Below are positions 13,228 through 27,167 of a DNA stretch of 32,482 nucleotides, piece after piece. The notes under the pieces are model-generated. The model saw only the letters and a program-made list of their open reading frames with translations, made no database searches and was not told the origin of the DNA. The position numbers and the translations under genes were made by a program. This DNA is from Ruminococcus sp. UBA3800. Lineage in GTDB: Bacteria > Bacillota > Clostridia > Oscillospirales > Ruminococcaceae. The stretch is from NCBI GenBank assembly GCA_002368715.1, contig DFEO01000151.1, forward strand, positions 1 through 32,482, read 5' to 3'. The stretch's first letter is position 1. Each line of letters begins with the position of its first letter.

Positions 13228-13255
13228 TACCCCTCCCCCACAAGCAAAAACAATA

Positions 13256-13281
13256 CCCGGAAAGACCGCAGTCTCTCCGGG
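13256..13281 (-). terminator. Terminator of the large ABC-transport operon
   Basis: CCCGGAAAGAC (13256-13266) pairs with GTCTCTCCGGG (13271-13281) with one mismatch (G-U possible in one strand) and a CGCA loop. On the minus strand it is followed by TATTGTTTTTG, and on the plus strand by CAG plus seven Ts, so it may work both ways. It lies 27 bases past the stop of the last permease gene. Confidence 0.8.
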
Positions 13282-13307
13282 CAGTTTTTTTATAAACGCT
13301 GCAAGCC

Positions 13308-14354
13308 TTAGTTTGCAAGACCCGAACGCTCGATACCTTCGATGAAGTACCTTTGCAGGAATACATACATTACCAATATCGGCGTTATGGACAGCAAGCA
13401 TCCGGCTTCGAGCCAAACGATGATCTGACGGACAGATACCTGCTGACCGTCGAACAGCGTCTGAGCCAGGTTTGTGTTAAGGTTTTTAAGCATCAGCGCA
13501 ACAGTATCATTCTTTGTGAAGAAGGACGAGGAAACATAATAGTCGTTCCAGTACCAAACTATCGAGAACAGGAATACTGTCAGGAATGAGGATCTTGCGT
13601 TAGGACACATGATCTTTACAAAGGTGTAAAGAGGGCTGCATCCGTCAAGATAAGCCGCATCTTCAAGCTCCTTGGGCAGTCCTCTGAAGAACTGACGGAA
13701 GATGAAGATGAACAGACCTGCACGCAGACCGTTTGCAAACAGCGCAGGCAGATACATTGTCCAGCCTGAGTTGATAAGCGATGTCTCGCCGCCTGTCAGC
13801 AGCTTTGCCAGGAATTCAGGCTTGAAATAAGCATACTGGAGATACAGCGGGATAGTGGTGATCTGCGGAGGAACGATGATCTGGAGAACAACGATAGCAA
13901 ACAGGATGCTCTTTCCCTTGAACTTGAATCTTGCAAAGCCATAGCCTGTTATCGAGCAGGTGATGACCTGAAGGATCGAAGCTACAATGTTGAGGATGAC
14001 CGTGTTTACGACCGTCTTGTCAAAGGACATAACGTCCCAGACATCGTAGATGTTCTGCATCGTGAAGCTCTTTGGCAGCCATACGACCGACGGGTCATTC
14101 ATCTGCTCGTTCGGTCTGAATGCTGTCGAGAGCATAAAGATGAGAGGATAAAGGATTACAAAGCAGAGTCCGAACAGGATCACGAACCTGAAGAACGGCC
14201 ATACAGCACCGATCCATTTTCTTCTCCTGTTATAAGCTATCTGTTCGGGAGTCAGATATTTTTCAAGCCCTTCTTCTTTCATCTTTTTGTAGCGGGCTTT
14301 CTGGGCAGCCTTGCGTTCTTTTTCAAACTGTTTTTCTTCTTTTTTAGTTGCCAC
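13308..14354 (-). CDS. Carbohydrate ABC transporter permease, MalG type (second pair)
   Basis: The 348-residue inner permease has a lysine/glutamate-rich cytoplasmic N-terminus of about 55 residues and six predicted membrane helices. The coupling (EAA) loop near the C-terminal third reads PKELEDAAYLDGCSPLYTF, close to the CUT1 consensus; the following segment reads CPNARSSF rather than the usual P-x-x-x-P. Known: MalG-type subunits pair with MalF-type subunits to form the channel of sugar importers. It starts 12 bases after its MalF-type partner and is the last gene of the operon, followed by the hairpin at 13256-13281. The substrate is unknown. Confidence 0.9.
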   Translation of the reverse strand: MATKKEEKQFEKERKAAQKARYKKMKEEGLEKYLTPEQIAYNRRRKWIGAVWPFFRFVILFGLCFVILYPLIFMLSTAFRPNEQMNDPSVVWLPKSFTMQNIYDVWDVMSFDKTVVNTVILNIVASILQVITCSITGYGFARFKFKGKSILFAIVVLQIIVPPQITTIPLYLQYAYFKPEFLAKLLTGGETSLINSGWTMYLPALFANGLRAGLFIFIFRQFFRGLPKELEDAAYLDGCSPLYTFVKIMCPNARSSFLTVFLFSIVWYWNDYYVSSSFFTKNDTVALMLKNLNTNLAQTLFDGQQVSVRQIIVWLEAGCLLSITPILVMYVFLQRYFIEGIERSGLAN

Positions 14355-14366
14355 TTATATCCCCCC

Positions 14367-15557
14367 TTACTCTACTTCATAGTATACGAACTTATTGATA
14401 AAGGCTACAACGATAGCAAGGAATACCGCAACGATAGCGAAGTATGCCCAAGCCATTGCTGCCGAGTAACCGTGCTCCCAGTTGCTCGCTTTATTAAGTA
14501 CGATAGACATTACACTGTTCTGAGGATCCACGAAGGAGTCTACTATGGTGTAAACAACGCTTGCGAGGATCATCGGGCTGATGTAAGGGATAGTGACCTT
14601 CCAGAAGAACTCCCAGGCTGTCGCACCCTCGATCTGAGCTGCTTCCTTGGAAGAAAGCGGAATTCCCTGAAGTGCGGAAAGTATCAGAAGGATCTGGATA
14701 CCCGAGTTCCACACAAGGTCGAAGATGTCGGTTATCAGAGTGTTGAGTGTTTCTGTAAGGGTGTCACTGATGTTATACACTCCCAGGAAGTTGAGCAGCT
14801 GGTCAACGAGGTTTGCCTCGAACATTGTGCTGAACTGCTCTGCGCCGCCCGAGAAGCCGCCCTGATCCATGTTACCGTTGATGATGTCGATAACAGGACC
14901 CGTAGCGATGATAACGGGGAGGAAGAATACCGCTCTTGCGAAGGTCCTTCCTTTGAATTTCTGGTTCAGGATAACTGCGATGAATATCGCAAAGATGAGG
15001 ATGAGCGGTGTTCTCAGAACAGTGCTCTGAAGCATCTCCACGAGAGCCTTCGAGTAATCCTGGTCTTTTCTGAATGCGTTACGGTAATTCTTGAGGCCGA
15101 TCCACTCCATTTTCATACCGCCCTGATTTACCTCGGTCTTGTTGAACGAGTATATCAGCGACTCGATGAACGGAAGGATGAAGAAGTAGATAGTTCCCAG
15201 CGCCCAGATAGCTATAAAGCCATAGCCGTAAAGGCCTTTTCTTCTCTCATAAGAGAGTCTGTGCTTTTTCTCGGGCTTCCTGTTTGCAGCGGCAGCTTCG
15301 GCAGCGGTCTCCTCTGCGATCGCTTTGCTCTCAGCCTCAAACGCTTCCTTGGAAGCGGCGATGTCATCGTCTGCTTCCTCGGCAGCTTCTTCTGCTGCCT
15401 CTGCTGTATCCTCTGTCTCTTCAACAGTCTCCTCAGCCGCATCGGCAGCAGCCTCGACAGCCGCATCGGCTGTCTGCTCTGCTTCGCTCTCAGCTTCGTT
15501 GATCTCGGTATTAACTTCCTCCGGGTCTAACGGAGTGTTCATGATCTCTTCACTCAT
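14367..15557 (-). CDS. Carbohydrate ABC transporter permease, MalF type, with acidic N-terminal arm
   Basis: This 396-residue permease is longer than the usual 290-310. The first 90-100 residues are almost entirely Glu, Ala, Asp, Thr and Ser, then comes a basic segment (RKPEKKHRLSYERRKG) and the first membrane helix (GFIAIWALGTIYFFIL). The permease core carries the coupling loop SKEAAQIEGATAWEFFWKVTIP, a good EAA motif. By the positive-inside rule the acidic arm is cytoplasmic. Its start overlaps the stop of the DUF5696-like gene (ATGA), and its MalG-type partner follows after 12 bases. Arms like this are not part of the known transport cycle and may be a docking segment; that is inference. 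Confidence 0.9.
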   Translation of the reverse strand: MSEEIMNTPLDPEEVNTEINEAESEAEQTADAAVEAAADAAEETVEETEDTAEAAEEAAEEADDDIAASKEAFEAESKAIAEETAAEAAAANRKPEKKHRLSYERRKGLYGYGFIAIWALGTIYFFILPFIESLIYSFNKTEVNQGGMKMEWIGLKNYRNAFRKDQDYSKALVEMLQSTVLRTPLILIFAIFIAVILNQKFKGRTFARAVFFLPVIIATGPVIDIINGNMDQGGFSGGAEQFSTMFEANLVDQLLNFLGVYNISDTLTETLNTLITDIFDLVWNSGIQILLILSALQGIPLSSKEAAQIEGATAWEFFWKVTIPYISPMILASVVYTIVDSFVDPQNSVMSIVLNKASNWEHGYSAAMAWAYFAIVAVFLAIVVAFINKFVYYEVE

Positions 15558-18088
15558 TCTTCAATACCTCCTTCAACACAATCTTCAAGCGGAATGATCT
15601 TTCCGTCGACCTCAGCCTGGCTGAGCTCTGTGTTCACCTTGATAACAACATCGGGCTGACCGTCCTTTGAATATGTTGTTGTGAACTCTGTTCCGTCCCC
15701 GTTTCTCTCATACTTTGTTATAGTATAATCGGAAACGCCTGCGAGGATCTCCTGTGCTGCCTTATACTGCTTTGCAGCCATATCTGTCCAGCCCTCATAA
15801 TGAGTGTAATAAAGCTCATCATAGTCGGTATCCTGGAGAGTGTCGGCATCCACATAGGTAAGATCATAATGGATCTGAGAGCCGGAAGCCAGCGACAGAT
15901 AGAATACCTCGTCAGTGTTCGAGCTCTTATTTACCGATGTGCCTGCATAATCAAGGTAGCCGTGGATGACCATCTGATAGAACGGGATATCATAATCTGT
16001 GATATTGAAGCTGCTCGAATATACAGGTATATTCGACACCTTGTTCACATAAGGCAGTACATAAGCGTTTGCGCCGGAAGCGTAAACCGTCTTTTCCTGA
16101 CCCTTGGCCTTTTCATAGCCTTCAAGGAGCTTCTTCATCGTATTCGATCTGCTCGAAGGTTCACTGTTGGTAAAGTCTGAAACGAGCCTTGTCGAATAGT
16201 AGCCAAAGCCTACTGCATCTAGCTTCTCGTCCTCGTAGCTCTCGAGCATCTCGGAGAACACGTCGGAGTACTTGTTAGGTGTCAGCAGTGCGGGAGCAAC
16301 TCCCTTTTCAGCAACACCGAATGCCGGGCTGTATGAGCTCTGTCTTGAATAAGCGTTTGAAACTCTTATTGCGGTGCTCGTAAGGGTCATATAACCCCAT
16401 GAGCTTGAAGACATCGTAAAGTTGTTGAGCGAAGGAATGACCTCCACATTCTTGTCAAGACCTATCAGGTCCTCGAAGTCTCCGCTTCCGCCCAGTGTAC
16501 CCGAAGGATCCGCATCAGTTGCGATCTTCTTCTTGATAGCATCGTCGGTCCAGTCGTTATAGTTGACTGTCATCGAGGAAACGCCGTCGTCCTTGAAGCC
16601 GTTGATAAGCTCCTTGGCCTGATTGAAGCCTGTTATCTCGGTCTTGAGGTTGAAGGGGATACCGAGTATCGAGGTATCCTTCATAACGCCGCCGTACAGG
16701 TCGAGATACAGGTCGTTGTTGTTGGCTGTTGCCTTCTTCTCCAGACCCTTCTCGTTTATCAGATAGTTTCTGTAAACCTCTGCGCAGTCGGCATAGTTAA
16801 GGTCGCCGCTCTCGCTGTCGATAGGATAATACTTCACGCCGAAGCGGTCGGTCTTTATCTTGCCCTTCTCGAACACCGTAAGTCTTGTCGAGCTGTCACC
16901 GCTCATAAAGAACGAGTCGGTGCTCTTGAGCTCAAACTCAAAGTAGCAGTTGTTATATGCCTGCTTCTCCTGTCCGCAGACCTGAGCGTGAGCATAAACG
17001 TTAGCGTCGCCATCGGAAGCCACCATAACAACGCCCTTGTTTCCGCTTACCGTTGCCATAACAGGCAGATATGCCTGCTGGGTGATACGGGGAGCATTGA
17101 GCGGTACAGCAGTATAATCTCTGCCGTATACCTGCTGTGAATAGTCCTGATAGTTCTGCTTGCCATTATTATAATTGATAACAGCGCCTGTACCATCGGG
17201 GATTATCATATATCCGTCGGTCTGAGAATCAGCCGCAGCAAAGTAAGGCATGATCTCGAGCTTTGTGAGGATATGACCATCCAGCGATGAGGTGTTGACC
17301 TCCTCGATATCTTCCTTGTCAACATAAGCATAGAGATGATCCTCTCCCAGCTCATAGTTGATCTTATAAGCGATATCATACTTATTCTTTGAATTCTTGA
17401 TCCTGTACTTTACAGTTTCAACGATCTTATCGCCCTTAACGTCGAATTTCACCGTACACTTATTGGTGTAGGTCACAGAGGACTCACCTCTGTTGGTCTC
17501 GCCGACGTCTCCGATCTTGAAGCCCGAAGTGGAAGCCACCTGCTTACGCTGAGCGGAAGCCATATCTCTTCCCTTGTCTGCATCAAGTATCGTAGTATCG
17601 ACACCTACATTGATAGGTGAAGACCACCATACAGAACCGGTTTTCTTTACCTTAACGGCAAGTCTTTCGTTCTTCTCATCGAGATAGACCTCAAGATTGT
17701 CGTTTGAAAGAGCCTTTTCTGCCATTGCAAGCGCCTCATCATCAGTGATAGGCTGCTCTTCTTCCTCTTCCTCCGCCGCACTGTCAGTTTCAGCGGTGCT
17801 CTCATCAGTCACAGCGCTCGACTCATCCGTTTGAGCTGAGCTGTCGGCTGTCTCGTCAGCTGTGCTGTCGTCCGAAGCTGTACTCTCGTCCGAAGCGGTG
17901 CTGTCGGCTGCTGCATCACTGTCTGCGGTCTCTTCAGCGGCTGTGCTGTCTGTCGTCTCGGCAGCGGAGGAATCCGCAGCTGCGCTCGACACCTCATCCG
18001 AGGTCGAGGATACAGCCATTGAACCGAGCGGCGTCAGCATTGTAAGACAAAGGGCAAAAACTATTGCTTTCTTATAATTCTTCTGCAT
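15554..18088 (-). CDS. Secreted DUF5696-like protein with acidic low-complexity linker
   Basis: The 844-residue protein has an N-terminal signal peptide (KKAIVFALCLTMLTPLGSMA). A stretch of about 100 residues composed of Ser, Asp, Ala, Thr and Glu, ending in EEEEEE, follows, and then a large globular part of about 720 residues. The globular part contains SVWWSSPINV, a beta-rich middle and alternating strand/helix blocks such as GFNQAKELINGFKDDGVSSMTVNYNDW. I recall this as the DUF5696 type often found next to carbohydrate ABC permeases and Yip1 proteins. The later half reads like a barrel fold related to glycosidases, so it may bind or cut a glycan, but I see no certain catalytic pair. It lies 20 bases after the Yip1 gene and overlaps the next permease gene by four bases. 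Confidence 0.72.
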   Translation of the reverse strand: MQKNYKKAIVFALCLTMLTPLGSMAVSSTSDEVSSAAADSSAAETTDSTAAEETADSDAAADSTASDESTASDDSTADETADSSAQTDESSAVTDESTAETDSAAEEEEEEQPITDDEALAMAEKALSNDNLEVYLDEKNERLAVKVKKTGSVWWSSPINVGVDTTILDADKGRDMASAQRKQVASTSGFKIGDVGETNRGESSVTYTNKCTVKFDVKGDKIVETVKYRIKNSKNKYDIAYKINYELGEDHLYAYVDKEDIEEVNTSSLDGHILTKLEIMPYFAAADSQTDGYMIIPDGTGAVINYNNGKQNYQDYSQQVYGRDYTAVPLNAPRITQQAYLPVMATVSGNKGVVMVASDGDANVYAHAQVCGQEKQAYNNCYFEFELKSTDSFFMSGDSSTRLTVFEKGKIKTDRFGVKYYPIDSESGDLNYADCAEVYRNYLINEKGLEKKATANNNDLYLDLYGGVMKDTSILGIPFNLKTEITGFNQAKELINGFKDDGVSSMTVNYNDWTDDAIKKKIATDADPSGTLGGSGDFEDLIGLDKNVEVIPSLNNFTMSSSSWGYMTLTSTAIRVSNAYSRQSSYSPAFGVAEKGVAPALLTPNKYSDVFSEMLESYEDEKLDAVGFGYYSTRLVSDFTNSEPSSRSNTMKKLLEGYEKAKGQEKTVYASGANAYVLPYVNKVSNIPVYSSSFNITDYDIPFYQMVIHGYLDYAGTSVNKSSNTDEVFYLSLASGSQIHYDLTYVDADTLQDTDYDELYYTHYEGWTDMAAKQYKAAQEILAGVSDYTITKYERNGDGTEFTTTYSKDGQPDVVIKVNTELSQAEVDGKIIPLEDCVEGGIEE

Positions 18089-18108
18089 TATTTACACCAC
18101 CCTTTCTC

Positions 18109-18738
18109 CTAGCCTCTGATCCTGTATGCGATCTCGGTATAGATCGAATAGCCGAATACATAGACCTGCTGGAACAGCGAAAGGAGCAATATCGCAAGGA
18201 ACAGTATAAGAAGCATTGCGATGATAGTGCCCACTATCGAAGCAAGGGTCTTTCCGAATGAATACTGGTGTGCTGCTCTCATAGCCTGGATCATCAGGAC
18301 TACGGACCAGCCCAGTCCGAGATAGTTTATTGCATGTATCCAGATAGCCTCCTCCTGAACGAGAACGTTAGAGAAGATAACTGCGATAAATGTGCACACT
18401 ATGTAAGGAACAAGCGAATATGCGGAATAGATAAGGATCCTTTTCAGAGTACCCTCACCGTCAAGAAGCGTGCATATAGCCCAGTTTCCTATTACCCATG
18501 TAAAGAAGTAAACTACCGACTGTACCAGCAGAGGCACAACATTGAATACCTTTACATAGTTCTCGTTGAACTGGAAGCCTGTCAGCTGTCTGTCCACGAC
18601 CATTGCAACGAAAAGCAGGAAGACTATACCGAGTGCGATCTTTATCGAGCCCTGCTTTTTCCATCTGAGGTCCTCAAAGCCCTCTACTGGGTGAAAGACA
18701 CAATGCTTGAGCCAGCCCATTGGCGAAAATTCATACAT
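18109..18738 (-). CDS. Yip1-family integral membrane protein
   Basis: The 209-residue protein has about five membrane helices (IALGIVFLLFVAMVV, FNVVPLLVQSVVYFFTWVIG, ILIYSAYSLVPYIVCTFIAVIF, INYLGLGWSVVLMIQAM, TIIAMLLILFLAILLLSLF). The N-terminal HPVEGFEDLRWKKQGS and the central YSLVPYIV are typical of bacterial Yip1/YIP1 proteins. Known: eukaryotic Yip1 works in vesicle traffic; the role of bacterial members is unknown. It lies one base after the NHL/TPR gene and 20 bases before the DUF5696-like gene, so it is translated with them and may be the membrane anchor for their complex (inference). Confidence 0.8.
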   Translation of the reverse strand: MYEFSPMGWLKHCVFHPVEGFEDLRWKKQGSIKIALGIVFLLFVAMVVDRQLTGFQFNENYVKVFNVVPLLVQSVVYFFTWVIGNWAICTLLDGEGTLKRILIYSAYSLVPYIVCTFIAVIFSNVLVQEEAIWIHAINYLGLGWSVVLMIQAMRAAHQYSFGKTLASIVGTIIAMLLILFLAILLLSLFQQVYVFGYSIYTEIAYRIRG

Positions 18739-18739
18739 A

Positions 18740-20353
18740 CTAGTCTCCCCCCTTAATTATAGTTCTGAGGAACTTCTGAACTCCACGTTTTCTGAGTATC
18801 TTCACAAGTATCAGGACAACTATCAGTCCGATAATGATTATCATTATCAATGTGAAGTGCTTTCTCAAAAATTCCTCTCTTGCATACTTGAACGCCTTAT
18901 CATAGTCGTCCCTGTCGTATGAGGTCTTGAAGTAATCAAGAGCCTTGCTGTACTCGCCCTCTGTAAGAGCAGCCTTTCCGAGACCTGTGTATGCCAGAGC
19001 ATAACCTCCGTCTCTCTTGACTACCTCTTCCCATTCGGGCTTTGCGTCAACATATCTTCCCTCGTCGTAAAGAGCGACTGCCGAATGAACATAGTGACCA
19101 AAGGTGGTCTCTGTGTATATCGTTATGTCGTTCTTCGAGCCGTCGAGGATAAATATCTCATTGTCCACAGCCTCGATAGCGTTCGGGCTGGTAAAGCTTC
19201 CCTCCTGGTCGGAGGTCGAGTTCTTTGTTCCGAAGATGCACAGCAGATTACACAGCTTGTCATACTGGAACACTCGTCCGTTTTCAAAATCGAGGATATT
19301 TATCGTTCCGTTGTTTGAAACAACGATATCGGTAAGTCTGCACTTATAGCTCTTGTTCTGGGTCGCATCATACTCTGTCGTAAGGTCACCGAACTTATAC
19401 TCGTCGCCCACAACGTTGTCCCAGATATTATATCCCGCAGGATTGAGCTTCTTTACAGCGTCTGTCTGGGCATTGGCTGCCTCGGTTACTGTATAAACGA
19501 AGCCGTCATTGTCGATATCAAAGTTTGCATACTCGACAGGAACGTTTCTCTTCATTCCCTGGATCTGCTCATTTGAAGCGATCTTTCTCCAGAGCTGCTG
19601 AGCGATAACAGCTGCCGTTACCTCAACTCGGTTTGCACCGTAGAAGCCCTGGAACTCGCCGGAAGACGAGAACTGAACGGCACCCGCTGTGATCGACTTA
19701 CATACGCAGTAAACATTCTCGGCTGCATCTGCAAGGATCTTTGAAGGGTTGAACACCTTCGAGTCATAAAGCTTTGTTTCAGGCTTCAGATACTCCTGAA
19801 CGAGCTCCAGCTCGGTATCAGACTTGACCTTGCATTTCAGTGCTCTTGAATTGTCGGCATCTGCTATATAAACATAGAGGTTGCCGTCGATGATGCTCTC
19901 CTTTACATAGATACCCGAAGGTCCGTCGAAGGTCGAAACACCGTCCTCTCTGACAGCGATCTCCGTATCACCGCTGACGCCGTCAAAGCATCCCGTGAGC
20001 TTCAGATCACGGTCGAGCCTGAGGATACGATCATTTCCCGTATCGCATATCCAGAAGGTCTCGTTGTCATCATCATAATAGAGATCCTTAGCATCCTTCA
20101 GTGCTGAAGGAGCCTCTTCATTTAAAAAGAGTGGATCCGAGGGGTCAGACATTCTTGAAAGACCCATATCCGCACCCGTTACTGCTACATTTACTCTGTA
20201 AGCGCTCTGCGAAGGTATCGCTGACTCCCAGTAGTCGTAGTTGTAAGCGGTGTACGGTTCGTCTGCAAATGCGGCGGTGGTCATTGTGAGAGCCAGCGCA
20301 GCTGCCATTGCCGACGTTATTATTCTTTTAAGAGAATTTTTATAACTCAACAC
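18740..20353 (-). CDS. Membrane-anchored NHL beta-propeller / TPR protein
   Basis: The 537-residue protein has an N-terminal signal peptide (ALALTMTTAAFADEP). A long beta-propeller region with NHL-like repeats spans about residues 70-410 (WICDTGNDRILRLDRD, INILDFENGRVFQYD, IFILDGSKNDITIY). Two TPR-like helix pairs follow at about 415-490 (ALYDEGRYVDA, GLGKAALTEGEYSKALDYF). A C-terminal membrane helix (IMIIIIGLIVVLILVKIL) ends in a basic tail. The propeller and TPR part should therefore be outside and the tail inside. The start is GTG with AGGTGA upstream. It sits between the first permease pair and the Yip1 gene with short gaps. NHL propellers bind proteins, sugars or RNA; here a sensor or scaffold for the transporter is a reasonable guess only. 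Confidence 0.8.
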   Translation of the reverse strand: MLSYKNSLKRIITSAMAAALALTMTTAAFADEPYTAYNYDYWESAIPSQSAYRVNVAVTGADMGLSRMSDPSDPLFLNEEAPSALKDAKDLYYDDDNETFWICDTGNDRILRLDRDLKLTGCFDGVSGDTEIAVREDGVSTFDGPSGIYVKESIIDGNLYVYIADADNSRALKCKVKSDTELELVQEYLKPETKLYDSKVFNPSKILADAAENVYCVCKSITAGAVQFSSSGEFQGFYGANRVEVTAAVIAQQLWRKIASNEQIQGMKRNVPVEYANFDIDNDGFVYTVTEAANAQTDAVKKLNPAGYNIWDNVVGDEYKFGDLTTEYDATQNKSYKCRLTDIVVSNNGTINILDFENGRVFQYDKLCNLLCIFGTKNSTSDQEGSFTSPNAIEAVDNEIFILDGSKNDITIYTETTFGHYVHSAVALYDEGRYVDAKPEWEEVVKRDGGYALAYTGLGKAALTEGEYSKALDYFKTSYDRDDYDKAFKYAREEFLRKHFTLIMIIIIGLIVVLILVKILRKRGVQKFLRTIIKGGD

Positions 20354-20391
20354 TACTTATCACCTGTTTCCTTTTAAATTTAAGTTCATCA

Positions 20392-21297
20392 TCAATCCTT
20401 CATACCGGAGTTTGCCATAGTCTCCATGACATTTCCCTGTGCTATAAGGAATACAACGAGTGGTGGTATCAGAAGTACGACCGCAGCCGCAAAGGTTACG
20501 CCCTGACGAGCAAGACCTGCAAGCGTGATCTGCTGTACAACTGTTGGTAGTGTTTTGAGCTCCTCGGAGTAGATAAGAGCTCCGCCCTGGATGTTCCAGG
20601 CGCCCTGGAAAGCGAAGATGATAAGTGTCATCAGCGCAGGCTTCGAGTTAGGAACAACGATCTGCCAGCAGATCCTGAAAAGTCCCGCACCGTCCACCTT
20701 TGCCGCCTCGACCATCGAGTCGTGGATCGTTGTCATGCTCTGACGCATAAGGTAAAGACCCATGGCTGTGGAAACGCTGGGCAGGATAAGTGCCCAATAG
20801 GTATCGATCATATGCAGCTTCGACATTACGAGGAAGGACATGATCCATGTTGCGTTCGAGGAGAACAGAAGGGCGATAACGATTATCTGGTTTATCGCTT
20901 TGCTGCCCGGGAACTTGCACTTTGAAAGAACAAATGCGGCACAGCAGCAAACAAACAGGTTTGCAGCGCAGATAACTATCGTGATGAATACGCTGTTGAA
21001 GATGTATCTCGACAGCGGCACCTGCCACGAGCTTGCAGCGACCTTGAACATATCGGAGAAGTTATTTGTGGTAGGGTTTAAAACGTAAAGCTTAGGCGGG
21101 AACACGAACAGCTCCTCGACAGGCTTCAGCGACTGTATTATCGAATAATACAGAGGGAAGACCATAAACATACCCAGCAAACACAGGAACACGAAGATCG
21201 CAATGTCTCCGCCGAGAGAGCCGTTGACTCTTTTCTTCTTTTCGCTGACCTTCAGCTTTTCGATGGATTGCTGCTTTTTTCTTCTTTTTCTTGCCAT
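20392..21297 (-). CDS. Carbohydrate ABC transporter permease, MalG type (first pair)
   Basis: The 301-residue permease has a basic N-terminus (MARKRRKKQQS), six predicted membrane helices and the coupling loop SMVEAAKVDGAGLFRICWQIVVP, a close match to the CUT1 EAA motif. Known: the MalG-type half of a sugar importer channel. GGGGGAG lies just upstream of the start. It follows its MalF-type partner by 16 bases and precedes the NHL/TPR gene by 38 bases. Confidence 0.92.
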   Translation of the reverse strand: MARKRRKKQQSIEKLKVSEKKKRVNGSLGGDIAIFVFLCLLGMFMVFPLYYSIIQSLKPVEELFVFPPKLYVLNPTTNNFSDMFKVAASSWQVPLSRYIFNSVFITIVICAANLFVCCCAAFVLSKCKFPGSKAINQIIVIALLFSSNATWIMSFLVMSKLHMIDTYWALILPSVSTAMGLYLMRQSMTTIHDSMVEAAKVDGAGLFRICWQIVVPNSKPALMTLIIFAFQGAWNIQGGALIYSEELKTLPTVVQQITLAGLARQGVTFAAAVVLLIPPLVVFLIAQGNVMETMANSGMKD

Positions 21298-21313
21298 TTA
21301 TGTCTCCCCCCTT

Positions 21314-22249
21314 CTAGTCAAGATATTTGCCCAGCAGCCAGTTGATGCCCTTATTTGCCAGAAGCATCGCAGCGAACAGAACAAAGCAGATAGCGGACGC
21401 ATAGCCCATCTCATATCTGATGGAGCCGTAGTCTGTTGCGTGGTTCATGATCGTGTGGGCTGCATAGTCGGTCGAAGGAAGACCTACAAGGTTCTGTCCA
21501 ACGATACCTACGGTGAAAGATGCCGATATCTGGATAACGGCTGCGAACAGAAGCTGAGGACCCATTGAAGGGATCGTTATCATAAACAGCTCCTGCCATC
21601 TGTTCTTGATACCCTCGATAGCGCCTGCCTCATACATCGACTTGTCGATGTTCTGGAAGCCTGCACGGATAGCAAGGAAGCCCGCACCCATCGACATCCA
21701 CAGCTGGACGATGATAACGACCGTAAGTATGTAGGTCGTATCGGTCAGCCACTGTGCCGGTGAGTTGAGTATCCCCACATCCATAAGGATAGCGTTGAGA
21801 TAACCGTAGGAGTCACCCGACAGGATCAGCTGCCAGGTAACATATACCGAGGTTACCATTGAGGGTGCGTAATAAACGAATGTAAAGAAGGTTTTCCAGA
21901 AGTTGCTCATCTCGTTTATCAGCCAAGCGATAAGGAAGCTGAGCACATAGGAGAACGGTCCTGTGAATATCGCAAAGATAAGAGTGTTTCTTACTGCGAT
22001 AAGGAAAACGTCATCGTTGAGGAACAGTGTGTAGAAGTTTGAAAGTCCTACAAACTTCGGCGTCTCGATCATATTGAAGTTGGTAAAGCCTATCGGAAGG
22101 CTCATTACGACCGGCATGATCGTGAATATGAAGAAGAACAGCATAAAGGGAAGGAGCATTATGTAGCATGACTTATTGGTCTTCATCATATGCCAGGTAT
22201 ATTTCCACTTGCCCTGTCGGATGATCGGCTGATCAGTATTATTGGCCAT
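21314..22249 (-). CDS. Carbohydrate ABC transporter permease, MalF type (first pair)
   Basis: The 311-residue permease has six predicted membrane helices beginning CYIMLLPFMLFFFIFTIMPV. Its coupling loop is SMYEAGAIEGIKNRWQELF, an EAA motif in which the third position is Gly. It is the expected channel partner of the MalG-type protein 16 bases downstream and starts 19 bases after the solute-binding protein gene, the classical order for a CUT1 importer. No acidic N-terminal arm is present, unlike its paralogue at 14367-15557. Confidence 0.92.
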   Translation of the reverse strand: MANNTDQPIIRQGKWKYTWHMMKTNKSCYIMLLPFMLFFFIFTIMPVVMSLPIGFTNFNMIETPKFVGLSNFYTLFLNDDVFLIAVRNTLIFAIFTGPFSYVLSFLIAWLINEMSNFWKTFFTFVYYAPSMVTSVYVTWQLILSGDSYGYLNAILMDVGILNSPAQWLTDTTYILTVVIIVQLWMSMGAGFLAIRAGFQNIDKSMYEAGAIEGIKNRWQELFMITIPSMGPQLLFAAVIQISASFTVGIVGQNLVGLPSTDYAAHTIMNHATDYGSIRYEMGYASAICFVLFAAMLLANKGINWLLGKYLD

Positions 22250-22268
22250 ATATCACTACTCCCCTTTC

Positions 22269-25196
22269 TTAATCTTTATACAGTCCGAGATCATCGAGCT
22301 TACGAGTGATCTCGTCGTTGATATCCTTGTTATACCAGAACAATGTGTCTCTTGCGTTCTCATAGCTGTTTACAACTGTTCTGAATGCGTTCATTATGTT
22401 TCTTGTCACACCGTAGGAAGCGGGGATTATCGGTATCTCTACCTGAGAATCGAGCTGCTCGTAAAGGTTGCTTACCTCAGAGGTAGTCCATGACAGCTGC
22501 GAAAGAGCCTCGACGTTTGCTGTGTCGAAACGTCCCATCGTTCCGAGGATAGACTCGATATTGTTTCCGTACTTGACCTGAGTCTCGGTCGATGTGAACC
22601 ACTTGATGAAATCCCAAGCGCCGTCCTGATCGGGAGCCTTTGTGAAGATGATAGCGCCCGAGCCGTTGGAGTTGGCTGCATGGTTTATGGTCCCGTCTTC
22701 CTGAACGGTTCCGGGAACCGGCTGGAAGTCCCAGCATCCCTTGATCTCGGGAGCTGCGACCGAGAGCTGGTTGAAGAACGTATAGTTCTGGATAACTACC
22801 GGCATATCTCCTGTTCTGAAACGTGAGAATGCGTCGTATGTCTGCTGGAAGCTGTAAGTCGTATAGAACTTGGTCCATGTATCGAATGCATCGATAGCTT
22901 CCTGAGTATCGAAGGTAGTTGCTGTCTGATCCTCATTATAGTAGTTGAGGCCCTGCTGGAGCAGCAGCATAGCGAAGGTGTTTCCGGGCTCGGTGATAGC
23001 CGAAACGTAAGTGGTTCCGCCGACGCTCTGCATTGCGGGGAGGATGAGTCCGACCTCAAGGTAGTTTCTCTGGAGAGTCGGCAGACAGTTAAGAAGTCCG
23101 TCCCATGTTGCAAGATCGGTCTTCGGATCGATCTCATATTCGCTCAGCACATCCGAGCGGTAGAACAGCATCGGGAAGGTCTGGCTGACAGGAAGTCCGT
23201 AAACGCCGTCATTATACTGATAAAGCACCATTGCGTCCTTCGAGAATCTTGTGGTCACTTCATCATAGTCGTCAAACTGTTTCAGGTCTGTCAGAACTCC
23301 TCTTGCTGCAAGCTGTATCGGGAAGTCGCCGCCCATGAACAGCGCAAGATCAGGACCCTTGCCTGCGAATGTTGCCTCGACGATACCGCCCTGAACGAGC
23401 TTGAGGTTTATCTTTGTCTTTGCATCGGGGTTATAGTCACTCGAGATGATCTGCTGAACAGCCTCTGCGTTATCACGTCCGAGGGATACCCAGCACTCCA
23501 TCGACTCGCCGCCCTCATCATCGGAAAGCGAGTTGTAGTCCTCCCAGAAGGAGCCCATAAATGCCTGGAAGCCATAGCTGAGAGAGCCGAAGAACGAAGA
23601 ATCTACCGAAGTAAACTCCTTGTCCGAGGTAGCGATCTCGATCATATCGACCTCGAGCGGCTGCTCACGGTACTGATTGATGAACGAAGAAAGGGCTGTA
23701 ACATTATCCTTGATCTGTGACATCATCTCAGGGATAAGGTCAGGCTTCTTGATGCACTTATCAAGAACGAGCGCCATCTTCTCGAGAGTCTCGGCCTCGG
23801 TTCCGCCCGAACCCGACAGATCCTCGATCTGCTGCTTCTGGCTCCTGAGCTGCTTTGCATAGCTCTTGAAGTCGGGAATGATCGAAGGTATAGCCTGGTC
23901 GATCATATAGTTGTTATACTCATCGGGATCCGGTCCTGTGATCTGACGGATCTGACGGTAATAGCTGTTGATGTTATAAACTGTCTCATCGAGACGGCCC
24001 ATTATCTCGCCTATCTCGCCGGGAACAGCCTCAAGCGAGATATAATTCACTCCCGCCTTGAGCTCGAAATACATCGGGTCTCCCGAATTTGATGTGGGAA
24101 CGGTAACGCTCCAGTCGGAATCATAGTAGAACTTGATCTGGTCTGCTTCCTTGCAGGGCACCTCTCCGTTTATGAGGAGCCTTCTGTTTGAATACATACC
24201 TCTCATCTGGTCCTGTCTTGCTCTGATACCGATCTTGTAGAAGCCGGCCTTCTTGACATTGACCTCCCATGTAACGGTCTGGGTAGCCTGTGTCCAGCTT
24301 CCCGAACCGATGGTGTTGTATCTGGTCTTTGTCGGGCTCGAACCGTTCTCGCAAGAGGTTATGTATGAGCTCTTATCGGAAGTAGGATAAAGTGTTCTCG
24401 CTGATTTATAGGCTGCCGTCTCGCCCTCGAGCTTGATTAGCTGTCCGCTGGCTAAGGAAAGCTGATCGTCCGTGGGGCTGACATAAGCATCCGGCACCTT
24501 ATGCTGATAGAGAGTGAAGTACTCCATAGCAAATTCTGCCTTCTCTGACTCAAAGGTGAATGTATGCTCACCCTTCTCGAGGAAAAACTCGAGAGGTTCG
24601 TTGTAAAGACCGTCGATATCCTCGAACGCAAGCTCCTGCCAACATGGCACAGAGATCTGTCCGGGACGGATATCATTCTGTCTCGAATCCTGCTTTATTT
24701 CCGACTCATTCATCCATCTCTTGGGCAGAGTTATTCTTCCTGCCGTAGAATATGGTGTCTGGCCGTCGATCAATAATGAAAACTCAACGTCATTGGTGTT
24801 GCTGTCGAGAGCCTCATAACTCATCTTGATGTTATAAACTCCCGTCTCAGGCACCTGTACCTTGTATGACACCGAGCCCTCCTGATTGGCCCACTGCATA
24901 ACGTCGCTTTTTCCGTCAACTGTTGTGACCGAGATCTCTGCTCCTTCTACCGAACCGGGATCGTAATCCTTGCCCATGACCTGAACTTCCTTGTCAGGCC
25001 TTGCCTCATCGGCATACTTGTCTACATAGTTTGTGTAGGAAGTCTGTCTCAGAGAGTCGGTTCCGGTTACTCTTGCCGCAGAATCAGTCGTGTCTGACGA
25101 GTCATTTTCCGACGCAAAAGCGCCTATGCCGCACGAGCAGCACAGAGCCAGCGCAAGCGCCGATGATATGACACGTCTGAACCTTGTGTCCTTCAC
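22269..25196 (-). CDS. Large extracellular solute-binding protein with extra N-terminal carbohydrate-binding-like domains
   Basis: The 975-residue protein is about twice the size of ordinary sugar-binding proteins. From GTG 25196 it begins MKDTRFRRVISSALALALCC, a signal peptide; the CCSCGIGAFASEN region could be a lipobox or a signal peptidase I site (AFA-SE). Two beta-sandwich domains resemble carbohydrate-binding modules (about residues 100-230 with VPETGVYNIKMSY; about 270-400 with KKAGFYKIGIRARQD). A helical connector (about 420-560) follows, then a family 1 binding domain (about 560-975) with GPDLALFMGGDF and GVYGLPVSQTFPMLFY. The frame opens at ATG 25226, but AGAAAGGTGG lies eight bases before GTG 25196. 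The permease pair follows 19 bases later. A palindrome lies in the leader (25215-25230). Confidence 0.87.
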   Translation of the reverse strand: MKDTRFRRVISSALALALCCSCGIGAFASENDSSDTTDSAARVTGTDSLRQTSYTNYVDKYADEARPDKEVQVMGKDYDPGSVEGAEISVTTVDGKSDVMQWANQEGSVSYKVQVPETGVYNIKMSYEALDSNTNDVEFSLLIDGQTPYSTAGRITLPKRWMNESEIKQDSRQNDIRPGQISVPCWQELAFEDIDGLYNEPLEFFLEKGEHTFTFESEKAEFAMEYFTLYQHKVPDAYVSPTDDQLSLASGQLIKLEGETAAYKSARTLYPTSDKSSYITSCENGSSPTKTRYNTIGSGSWTQATQTVTWEVNVKKAGFYKIGIRARQDQMRGMYSNRRLLINGEVPCKEADQIKFYYDSDWSVTVPTSNSGDPMYFELKAGVNYISLEAVPGEIGEIMGRLDETVYNINSYYRQIRQITGPDPDEYNNYMIDQAIPSIIPDFKSYAKQLRSQKQQIEDLSGSGGTEAETLEKMALVLDKCIKKPDLIPEMMSQIKDNVTALSSFINQYREQPLEVDMIEIATSDKEFTSVDSSFFGSLSYGFQAFMGSFWEDYNSLSDDEGGESMECWVSLGRDNAEAVQQIISSDYNPDAKTKINLKLVQGGIVEATFAGKGPDLALFMGGDFPIQLAARGVLTDLKQFDDYDEVTTRFSKDAMVLYQYNDGVYGLPVSQTFPMLFYRSDVLSEYEIDPKTDLATWDGLLNCLPTLQRNYLEVGLILPAMQSVGGTTYVSAITEPGNTFAMLLLQQGLNYYNEDQTATTFDTQEAIDAFDTWTKFYTTYSFQQTYDAFSRFRTGDMPVVIQNYTFFNQLSVAAPEIKGCWDFQPVPGTVQEDGTINHAANSNGSGAIIFTKAPDQDGAWDFIKWFTSTETQVKYGNNIESILGTMGRFDTANVEALSQLSWTTSEVSNLYEQLDSQVEIPIIPASYGVTRNIMNAFRTVVNSYENARDTLFWYNKDINDEITRKLDDLGLYKD

Positions 25197-25214
25197 TTGT
25201 GAATCCACCTTTCT

Positions 25215-25230
25215 CAAAATGATCATTTTG
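25215..25230. promoter_or_regulatory. Perfect 16-bp palindrome in the solute-binding gene leader
   Basis: CAAAATGATCATTTTG reads the same on both strands. It lies about 20-35 bases after the predicted transcription start and just before the ribosome binding site of the solute-binding protein gene, a place where a dimeric repressor could block transcription. LacI-, GntR- or AraC-type binding cannot be told apart by eye. Confidence 0.5.
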
Positions 25231-25256
25231 CGAGAATCAAACCTACTTATATATAC

Positions 25257-25262
25257 ATTATA
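25257..25262 (-). promoter_or_regulatory. Likely -10 box for the solute-binding protein operon
   Basis: A consensus TATAAT on the minus strand lies about 60 bases before the GTG start. No good -35 is at the normal distance (best is TTAATA at 19 bases), so the promoter may need an activator. Confidence 0.5.
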
Positions 25263-25283
25263 AATAGTACACAGATCCCTTTA

Positions 25284-25305
25284 TTAAGACCCTTTCGGGT
25301 TTTAA
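25284..25305 (-). terminator. Hairpin after the second ABC ATPase gene
   Basis: On the minus strand, TTAAAACCC and GGGTCTTAA form a nine-base stem with one mismatch around a GAAA tetraloop, six bases past the stop codon. The T-tract afterwards is poor, so termination is probably partial and some read-through into the solute-binding operon is possible. Confidence 0.5.
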
Positions 25306-25311
25306 CCTTTC

Positions 25312-26259
25312 TTAACTGCCCGACCTGAAAAGAACGACCCTGTCATTCTCCGCATCGAGCTCTGCTTTTATCTTTTCGCCGCCCTTTATTCCCAGCGACT
25401 CCAGAAACTCCTTTGGCAGCTGAACACGCCCCGATCGGTCGAGCACCAGAAACTCCTCGTGAACAGGTTCCTCCTGCTGCTCCTCGACCAGAACTATATC
25501 TCCCATCTCGTTCAGCTCCTCCACATAGGAGCGCTTTCTAACGATCTCGGAACTTGTCCTGCCGTCTCTTATAGCGACGACCCTGTCGATATGGTCCGCA
25601 AGCTTTACATCATGCGTAACAATAACGACCGTAACGCCCTCGCTCTTATTAAGATCCTTGAAGATATCCAGTATCATATTGGATGTCTTCGTGTCCACCG
25701 AACCTGTCGGCTCGTCTGCCAGCAGCAGCCTCGGGTCGTTCGCCATCGCTATGGCAATCGCCACTCTCTGCTGCTCGCCTCCCGACATCTGATCCAGCCT
25801 CGAATTCTTCCTCTTCAGAAGCCCGACCCTGTCCAGAAGCTCCAGCGCCTTCTGGCGTTTCTTGTGTGCTCCGCCCAAAAGCATCGGAAGCTCAACATTC
25901 TGCACCGCCGTCAAATAAGGCACCAGGTTCCTCGCATTGTTCTGCCAGACAAACCCGACAGTCCTGCGCTTATATTCCATATAATCTCTGTCAGTAAATT
26001 TAAGAAGGTTCTTGCCGTCCACATAAAGACTTCCCGCCGAAGGCTTATCCAGCCCTCCCAGCATATTCAGCAGCGTGGACTTGCCGCTTCCCGAGTTTCC
26101 GACGATAGCCATCAGCTCGCCCTTTTTCACATCAAGATCGAGCCCCTGAAGCGCTACCACTTCAACATCAGATGTTTTATATATCTTCACCAGGTTTTCA
26201 CACCTGATCATATATTCGTCATCATCGGCGGTTATAATAGTATCAACAGCTTCACTCAA
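25312..26259 (-). CDS. ABC transporter ATP-binding protein (LolD/MacB type) with C-terminal AbrB-like domain
   Basis: The 315-residue ATPase has Walker A GNSGSGKST, signature MSGGEQQRVAIAIA, Walker B RLLLADEPTGSVD and an H-loop VIVTHD. The ATPase part ends near residue 235. An acidic linker (EEQQEEPVHEE) leads to a C-terminal segment of about 45 residues, LDRSGRVQLPKEFLESLGI and onward, which has the swapped-hairpin pattern of the SpoVT/AbrB/MazE family. LolD/MacB-type ATPases normally energise FtsX-like permeases; none is in the window. It overlaps the upstream ATPase gene by eight bases, so the two are translated together and could form a heterodimer. Neither has the TOBE region of sugar-import ATPases. 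Confidence 0.88.
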   Translation of the reverse strand: MSEAVDTIITADDDEYMIRCENLVKIYKTSDVEVVALQGLDLDVKKGELMAIVGNSGSGKSTLLNMLGGLDKPSAGSLYVDGKNLLKFTDRDYMEYKRRTVGFVWQNNARNLVPYLTAVQNVELPMLLGGAHKKRQKALELLDRVGLLKRKNSRLDQMSGGEQQRVAIAIAMANDPRLLLADEPTGSVDTKTSNMILDIFKDLNKSEGVTVVIVTHDVKLADHIDRVVAIRDGRTSSEIVRKRSYVEELNEMGDIVLVEEQQEEPVHEEFLVLDRSGRVQLPKEFLESLGIKGGEKIKAELDAENDRVVLFRSGS

Positions 26260-26929
26260 CTACCTCACCGTCCTCCAGCGTATAGACCCTGTCAGCAACA
26301 TCCATCATGCTCGGGTCATGCGTCGTCATAACGATAGTCATGCCTTCGTTCGCTACAAGCTCCTTGAAAAGCTTCACGATATGCAGAGCCGTATTTGTAT
26401 CGAGCTCCGCCGTAGGCTCGTCAGCAAAAACGATCTTCGGCTTGTGCGCTATGGCCCTGGCGATAGCGACCCTCTGCTGCTCGCCTCCCGACATCTCGCC
26501 GGGACGGTGGACCATCCTTTTTTCAAGCCCCACATTCTTCAGACATTCCCTTGTCCGCTTAGCTCTCTGATCGTAAGGAAATTTTGCAAGCCTCAGCCCG
26601 AACTCAACGTTCTCATAGGCCGTCATACCCGACATCAGAGCTACCGACTGAAAAACGAAAGCCATTTCATAGCGCCTGATATCGTCCCTTGCTCTCTCCG
26701 AGAGCCTGGTTATATCACGCTCACCGAAAAACACATTTCCTCTGGTCGGCTTATCCAGCGCCCCCAGTATGTTTATCAGGGTCGTCTTTCCGCTTCCGGA
26801 CCTGCCCCTGAGCACCGTGAGCTTGCCCTGTTCTATCTCAATATTGATGTTTTTTAGTGCCGAGACTATGCTCCCGTCGCCGATCTTGAAATCACGGCAA
26901 ACACCTCTGGTAGACAGTATCACGCTCAT
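26252..26929 (-). CDS. ABC transporter ATP-binding protein (LolD/MacB type)
   Basis: The 225-residue ATPase is the usual length for the LolD/MacB/FtsE branch. It has Walker A GRSGSGKTT, the Q-loop in FVFQSVALMSGMT, the signature MSGGEQQRVAIARAIA, Walker B KIVFADEPTAELD and an H-loop MTTHD. It is the first gene of the long minus-strand set, preceded by AGAGGAA and by a consensus promoter about 200 bases away (27139-27167). Its 3' end overlaps the start of the second ATPase gene. No cognate FtsX-type permease or membrane-fusion protein is adjacent, so its partner is uncertain: the nearby MalF/MalG-type permeases, or a permease elsewhere. Confidence 0.9.
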   Translation of the reverse strand: MSVILSTRGVCRDFKIGDGSIVSALKNINIEIEQGKLTVLRGRSGSGKTTLINILGALDKPTRGNVFFGERDITRLSERARDDIRRYEMAFVFQSVALMSGMTAYENVEFGLRLAKFPYDQRAKRTRECLKNVGLEKRMVHRPGEMSGGEQQRVAIARAIAHKPKIVFADEPTAELDTNTALHIVKLFKELVANEGMTIVMTTHDPSMMDVADRVYTLEDGEVVE

Positions 26930-26952
26930 AAACGTTTCCTCTCAGGACGATC

Positions 26953-26988
26953 CAAGCCCTCCGCCGCCTGTTTTCGGGCGGTCGCTTG
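26953..26988 (-). promoter_or_regulatory. Two-part hairpin in the ATPase gene leader
   Basis: In the minus-strand leader, CAAGC/GCTTG (26984-26988 with 26953-26957) encloses CCGCC/GGCGG (26977-26981 with 26964-26968) and an eight-base CGAAAACA loop. It ends about 23 bases before the ATPase start codon. It does not match any riboswitch consensus I know; a role in translation control is possible. Confidence 0.35.
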
Positions 26989-27138
26989 TGCAAAACAGAC
27001 AAAATTCATAAGACCCTCAGAAGATCGCTCCGAGCTCCTGTGTTCTGTACAAAATGCTCAAAAAGGGCGTTCATGCGATATTCAATAGTCACAATAATAT
27101 ACAGAAAATGCACATAAGGGGTCATTATGCTAATCATA

Positions 27139-27167
27139 ATTATACCAAAACCAGTTATGATTGTCAA
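27139..27167 (-). promoter_or_regulatory. Consensus promoter for the ABC ATPase pair
   Basis: On the minus strand, -35 TTGACA (27162-27167) and -10 TATAAT (27139-27144) are both perfect consensus and exactly 17 bases apart. Transcription should begin near 27132, giving a leader of about 200 bases. The gene-free stretch 26930-27558 between the divergent ATPase and htrA genes holds this promoter and leader on one side and AT-rich htrA promoter DNA on the other. No credible coding frame was found in it. Confidence 0.9.

Follow-up and report, generated by a model that had tools for sequence, protein, structure and literature searches.

Several described ATP-binding cassette (ABC) transporters resemble, each in one part, the ten-gene locus of the gut bacterium Ruminococcus sp. 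UBA3800 that is analysed here. CUT1 importers can be served by a multitask ATPase, MsmX or MsmK (PMC7658222, in the part of that paper that bears on them), and MacAB-type exporters of Gram-positive bacteria, such as YknWXYZ, consist of an adaptor, an FtsX-type permease and a LolD-type ATPase (PMC5985334, PMC4887032 and PMC4338810, likewise in part). A third relative is LolCDE, the lipoprotein releaser, to which the ATPase LolD belongs. The locus lies in a stretch of 32,482 nucleotides, hereafter the window (positions 1-32,482 of contig DFEO01000151.1; assembly GCA_002368715.1, 1.84 Mb, 80% complete), in which ten co-oriented open frames occupy positions 13308-26929 of the minus strand. It is likely that these genes bring together, on one predicted transcript, parts of two ABC systems: the eight-gene core of an importer and the motors of a split exporter. 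Gene content, gene order, co-occurrence and predicted fold were read from the sequence.

Compared with the CUT1 importers covered by that part of PMC7658222, the locus encodes two permease pairs, a solute-binding protein (SBP) of 985 amino acids with two extra N-terminal domains, and additional NHL/TPR, Yip1 and DUF5696 proteins, and the operon holds no multitask ATPase of this kind. Unlike YknWXYZ, as far as the consulted parts of PMC5985334, PMC4887032 and PMC4338810 describe it, the exporter considered here has a one-chain permease with two FtsX domains and two unlike ATPases, one with an AbrB-like tail; its adaptor-FtsX genes are split from the ATPase genes in genomes with all ten genes, and Yip1 does not track it. 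LolD is the nearest NCBIfam model of both ATPases (228.0 and 203.2 bits for ATP1 and ATP2), as in LolCDE; however, both remain below the equivalog cut-off of 307.75, and the permease linked to them is one chain with two FtsX domains, accompanied by an adaptor. The next models include MacB and DevA, all under their cut-offs, and the ATPases can be placed in the LolD/MacB branch, as a preliminary description of this DNA had suggested. The ten genes and two transcription signals are as follows.

27139..27167, minus strand: promoter-like site, TTGACA-17-TATAAT, 12/12, TG before the -10 element; consensus match only
26252..26929, minus strand: ATP1, LolD/DevA-like ATPase of 225 amino acids; ABC_tran; Walker A, signature, Walker B and H-loop intact
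25312..26259, minus strand: ATP2, LolD-like ATPase of 315 amino acids with an AbrB/MazE-like C-terminal tail; ABC_tran
22269..25226, minus strand: giant SBP, 985 amino acids; SBP_bac_8, 86.8 bits (cut-off 27), and fold
21314..22249, minus strand: permA, UgpA-like CUT1 permease with EAA loop; BPD_transp_1, 20.3 bits, under the cut-off of 26.4
20392..21297, minus strand: permB, UgpE-like CUT1 permease with EAA loop; BPD_transp_1
18740..20353, minus strand: NHL/TPR protein with one C-terminal transmembrane segment (hydropathy, 502-520); NHL over, TPR under cut-off
18109..18738, minus strand: Yip1-family membrane protein; Yip1, 60.9 bits
15554..18088, minus strand: DUF5696 protein; DUF5696 (PF18952), 489.4 bits against a gathering cut-off of 25.6
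14367..15557, minus strand: permC, CUT1 permease with a long acidic/Ala-rich N-terminal extension; BPD_transp_1
13308..14354, minus strand: permD, CUT1 permease with a basic N-terminal extension; BPD_transp_1
13254..13283, minus strand: terminator-like hairpin of 13 pairs directly after permD; consensus match only

The genomic company of ATP1 and ATP2 points to an exporter. A search of 297 genomes of the host family with ATP2 (E<=1e-80, seven candidates scored per genome) gave matches in 53 genomes, 36 of which also contain the core, defined as SBP, permA, permB, NHL/TPR, Yip1, DUF5696, permC and permD. Among the 17 ATP2 genomes in which the core was not found, G070 is a short contig where the SBP gene follows ATP2; in 15 of the 16 others the order is adaptor-FtsX-ATP1-ATP2, and the sixteenth case lies at a contig end. 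The permease in these core-less genomes has about 950 residues and two FtsX stretches in all five that were scanned, and the adaptor is MacA-like. A further search with an alignment of ten such permeases (E<=1e-30) detected the double-FtsX permease in 57/297 genomes, including all 53 with ATP2 (Fisher p 2e-54, a value that ignores kinship). In the four remaining genomes, G239 and G290 have diverged ATPase genes adjoining FtsX, which score below the ATP2 threshold, G071 carries a fragment of ATP2 where a contig ends and G251 is represented by a contig fragment. Because the ATPases adjoin FtsX in core-less genomes and co-occur with it in 53/53 genomes, their most likely role is that of motors in a split MacAB-type exporter. 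The preliminary description had counted them as part of the CUT1 complex and named regular separation from the other genes with adjacency to an FtsX-type permease as an observation that would speak against this; such adjacency was found in a part of the genomes, the 15 core-less ones and two more that were identified later.

ATP1 and ATP2 are best read, from their sequences and settings, as two halves of one FtsX-type exporter ATPase heterodimer. A natural fusion of ATP1 with ATP2 (P0010) speaks for such a heterodimer, and a heterodimer would match a single-chain double permease well; the two unlike ATPases share their asymmetry with that permease. The four checked ATPase motifs are kept by both proteins in 63/63 loci. 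In a tree of 82 joined ATP1 and ATP2 rows, made by a quick method and with long branches flagged, a single change separates the four-gene setting from that with ten genes (support 98), and four changes are needed for an adaptor-FtsX pair seen downstream, a label that is blurred by contig ends. The AbrB/MazE-like match of the ATP2 tail is weak (23.3 bits, under the cut-off of 24.7), and the tail motif is present in 62/63 loci. This tail occurs on ATP2 kin in both FtsX and core settings and is an odd place for a dimerising DNA-binding-type fold. At G109, contig C25:7061-7948, an ATP2-like frame would extend to 538 amino acids with one internal TAG read through, resembling a near-fusion of ATP1 and ATP2.

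In the genome of the window, the adaptor and a double-FtsX permease of 993 amino acids are encoded at G000:C109:6335-10405, remote from the window, and no LolD-type ATPase lies beside them (locus L150). The adaptor adjoins FtsX in all 20 loci that were fetched from the 36 genomes with ten genes, and no gene of the ATP1/ATP2 type stands next to this pair; the exceptions are L153 and L156, where the ten-gene operon itself is the neighbour. L150, L151, L163 and L166 have other ABC ATPase frames at distances of up to 8 kb from adaptor-FtsX. Within the genus of the window, a C39-peptidase ABC exporter is found near adaptor-FtsX in L150 and two similar-sized ABC frames in L151, and both loci carry a nearby frame that we take to be anti-sigma-like. 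In at least 12 of 78 related loci, adaptor-FtsX follows permD, giving twelve-gene clusters such as that of Ruminococcus bicirculans 80/3 (L005); beside the operon of R. albus 8 (L076) no adaptor-FtsX pair was seen. The number of such clusters is a lower bound, because 24 of the 65 other permD loci have less than 7.5 kb of DNA beyond permD.

The eight other genes form a set of their own. The 78 related loci were obtained by scanning genome contigs with a DUF5696 alignment and come from the best 80 among 545 confirmed relatives, so that close kin are over-represented, and the order SBP-permA-permB-NHL/TPR-Yip1-DUF5696-permC-permD recurs among them, as judged with models built from the window proteins. 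The median gaps within the core of these loci are 17, 17, 42.5, 1, 20, -1 and 12 bases, and the largest median gap, 99 bases, separates ATP2 from SBP. In the host family, DUF5696 matches were obtained in 122/297 genomes, 97 of which were scored as core genomes by DUF5696 alone, the 25 with weak or partial matches being set aside. Across the phylum, a match at E<=1e-40 was obtained in 37/398 genomes, of which two belong to the host family. Among 20 loci outside the family, 11 contain all eight parts, six lack only a separate Yip1 and three contain fewer, which bears out the earlier suggestion that similar sets occur in other Firmicutes. NHL and Yip1 are fused in L188 (725 amino acids; the one checked outside the family) and in Paenibacillus L002. 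Named plasmid copies are known from Paenibacillus cellulosilyticus, with a gene annotated as a UgpC ATPase immediately before the core, and from Butyrivibrio fibrisolvens pNP243, where the gene table lists no ATPase beside the core and a GH43 gene lies upstream; neither plasmid locus has an ATP1/ATP2-type pair. The view that the eight genes other than those of the ATPases make up a single set, conserved across Bacillota and with glycan-handling folds, is supported.

The core is often found without the ATPase pair. No ATP2 match (E<=1e-80) was obtained in 61/97 core genomes, one of which is G071 with its ATP2 fragment, and the pair is not beside the core in 18/18 fetched family loci of such genomes, 15 of which have about 1 kb or more of upstream DNA. 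Likewise, no LolD-type ABC ATPase lies beside the core in the 20 loci outside the family; 15 of these are informative, as in the other five the SBP gene was not found or little DNA is available upstream. In the window and the related loci, the pair heads the core in 63/79 cases; nine of the 16 exceptions end upstream at a contig edge, one of them keeping a partial ATPase frame, and seven have 2.1-2.8 kb upstream of SBP without the pair. At L042:2512-2580, upstream of the SBP gene of a locus without ATPase genes, 23 codons match the end of ATP1 (78%), possibly as a remnant of pair decay or as an assembly artefact. The proposal that all ten proteins form one complex is partly supported, by the conservation of the eight-gene set and by the NHL/TPR-Yip1 fusions; membership of the ATPases in the complex of the CUT1-type permeases is not supported.

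All ten frames were found with the strand and family described for them, with permA and TPR scoring under their cut-offs. In the order of transcription, ATP1 and ATP2 overlap by 8 bases, followed by gaps of 85 (ATP2-SBP), 19 (SBP-permA), 16 (permA-permB), 38 (permB-NHL/TPR), 1 (NHL/TPR-Yip1) and 20 bases (Yip1-DUF5696), an overlap of 4 bases (DUF5696-permC) and a gap of 12 bases (permC-permD). The site at 27167-27139, upstream of ATP1, is the only 12/12 promoter match in the scanned stretch. The promoter and terminator calls are pattern matches and not mapped transcript ends, and the single transcript is predicted; the scan returned 25 promoter-like sites against 16.1 expected and 19 terminator-like sites against 10.7. 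A leader of about 210 bases (26930-27138) separates the promoter match from ATP1, and an Rfam scan matched no family, leader included.

If ATP1 and ATP2 belong to an exporter, the importer needs another motor. Neither operon ATPase has an OB/TOBE match, and the operon therefore encodes no MalK-type ATPase. An ATPase of this type (OB_MalK) was detected in 243/297 genomes of the family, in 92/97 core genomes and in 45/45 ATP2 genomes that are at least 90% complete. Within the genus, a UgpC-type ATPase gene stands apart from permease genes, and in G098 an OB_MalK ATPase gene lies about 2 kb upstream of the core. The motor of the importer is probably a shared MsmX/UgpC-type ATPase whose gene lies elsewhere. 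One could instead propose that ATP1 and ATP2 power the two CUT1 permease pairs, a LolD-for-MalK swap in this clade. The predicted single transcript, the position of the pair at the head of most cores, with most exceptions cut by contig ends, the rarity of MalK-type ATPase genes beside the core and the missing OB_MalK match in the genome of the window would fit such a swap. Against it stand the double-FtsX permease in every ATP2 genome, the adjacency of the same pair to FtsX in core-less genomes, the many core genomes that have no ATP2 match and the MalK-type ATPase that is retained in all well-assembled ATP2 genomes, for which reason a swap forced by MalK loss was rejected. If the pair had replaced MalK, a shift in the EAA loops might be expected, and none was seen in the four permeases. 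Such loops were found in all four, as first proposed, and in permA of 73/73, permB of 73/74, permC of 78/79 and permD of 76/78 sequences from the window and related loci. Loop identities across settings (permA-D: 0.695, 0.562, 0.665 and 0.591) resemble those among pair-less loci of similar overall divergence (0.696, 0.582, 0.638 and 0.595). We regard a swap as improbable.

Several observations nevertheless weigh against a split between the importer core and exporter motors with a motor from elsewhere. Every assignment of an ATPase to a permease, including those favoured here, is drawn from genomics. The pair lies within 12 kb of the core in 34/36 genomes with both, the other two having them on different contigs, and the position of adaptor-FtsX differs between subclades. 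As the pair keeps its place in front of the core while that of adaptor-FtsX varies, it is likely that pair and core are functionally tied in some way. A MalK-type ATPase gene is clearly beside the core in only 2/40 pair-less loci (L002, L135), and two more have a partial UgpC-labelled frame there. No OB_MalK ATPase was found in the genome of the window at its 80% completeness, nor in the pair-less core genomes G194 (93% complete) and G237 (99%). Conservation of the Q-loop/helical region between settings, 0.636 for ATP1 (0.612 elsewhere) and 0.61 for ATP2 (0.682 elsewhere), favours neither reading. Lacking an OB_MalK match, an ATPase gene on contig C132 of the window's genome was rejected as MalK; it lies together with a frame of 426 amino acids and two short permease-like ones and looks PotABCD-like.

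CUT1 and FtsX permeases contact their ATPases through different elements. This difference speaks against a second alternative, in which ATP1 and ATP2 would serve both the FtsX exporter and the CUT1 permeases, or in which both systems would form one assembly acting on one substrate. The stable linkage of pair and core and the twelve-gene clusters are what such a shared motor would lead one to expect, and the Yip1 protein YknW has been described to modulate assembly of the MacAB-like YknXYZ (in the consulted parts of PMC4887032 and PMC4338810). However, core and exporter each occur alone, and Yip1 is no standing part of this exporter: it is over its cut-off in 8/8 core genomes and in 0/12 core-less exporter genomes (G097 and G109 have weaker matches). 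Yip1 tracks the core rather than the exporter, and its assignment as the YknW of this exporter was rejected for that reason. We give little credence to the shared motor, and equally little to its most far-reaching form, in which ATP1/ATP2 would dock on both permease types, or hold both, perhaps via Yip1 or the AbrB-like tail, to build an import-export machine at the surface of Ruminococcaceae.

For the core, reading as a glycan importer is based on its binding protein, its permeases and the DUF5696 protein. The SBP consists of a signal segment, two beta-rich N-terminal domains, a helical linker and a C-terminal oligosaccharide-binding domain; its SBP_bac_8 match and fold identify it as a CUT1 family-1 extracellular binding protein, and its N-terminal part gives a CBM35-like match over and a Golvesin-like match under the cut-off. 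The permeases form CUT1-type pairs with EAA loops. The acidic/Ala-rich tail of permC and the basic tail of permD might pair with each other; a basic N-terminal tail is also present in permB. The DUF5696 protein comprises a signal segment, a low-complexity linker and, in the predicted structure, a beta-sandwich and TIM barrel with a GH129-like fold (predicted local distance difference test score, pLDDT, 77.6, with low-confidence loops). GH129, GH101, GH36 and GH31 chains are among the matches listed in a structure search. Unlike GH129 and GH101 glycosidases, the protein has no sequence match to solved members: sequence searches of solved structures returned no glycosidase, and one of them gave only chance-like other matches. 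Its nearest relative, 94% identical, is labelled Ruminococcus sp.

Another role might be considered for the core, which would handle or sense an envelope polymer rather than import a nutrient, with DUF5696 as a non-catalytic glycan binder. An alignment of 56 sequences, made at the sequence level, showed no conserved Asp/Glu at the barrel-strand ends where the catalytic acids of GH129-type enzymes would be expected, and 72/97 core genomes have a single DUF5696 match; both fit this role. The GH129-like fold, the oligosaccharide-binding domain and the CUT1 permeases are the features of an uptake system, and we consider the envelope role unlikely, though worth keeping in view. An open-access literature search returned no paper on DUF5696, on Yip1-family proteins together with sugar ABC transporter permeases, or on NHL repeats with Yip1 and ABC transporters; for MsmK in Ruminococcus it listed two papers, both on sialic acid transport. 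In R. albus 7, four ABC transporter operons are raised on cellulose according to the accessible part of a transcriptome study (PMC4300822); these operons could not be matched to this locus.

From these data we infer ATPase-permease docking, transport direction, substrate and the role of the transcript in co-expressing both systems. In the importer, the SBP and the GH129-like DUF5696 protein would capture an extracellular glycan, the NHL/TPR-Yip1 pair may act as a membrane-anchored accessory, and the two CUT1-type permease pairs would take up oligosaccharides, with energy supplied by a shared MsmX/UgpC-type ATPase from elsewhere in the genome. ATP1 and ATP2 would form the ATPase heterodimer of a MacAB-type exporter with a single-chain double-FtsX permease, whose adaptor and permease would be encoded elsewhere or, in some relatives, directly after permD. 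One transcript would thereby co-express the importer and the exporter motors.

Should the pair work for both systems, this would mean, surprisingly, that ATPases can be exchanged between transporter folds. For the eight-gene surface uptake set, a gene list, a predicted fold of its largest unknown protein and a candidate motor are now available. Contrary to a common assumption in annotation, an ATPase encoded beside a permease in an operon need not be its motor.

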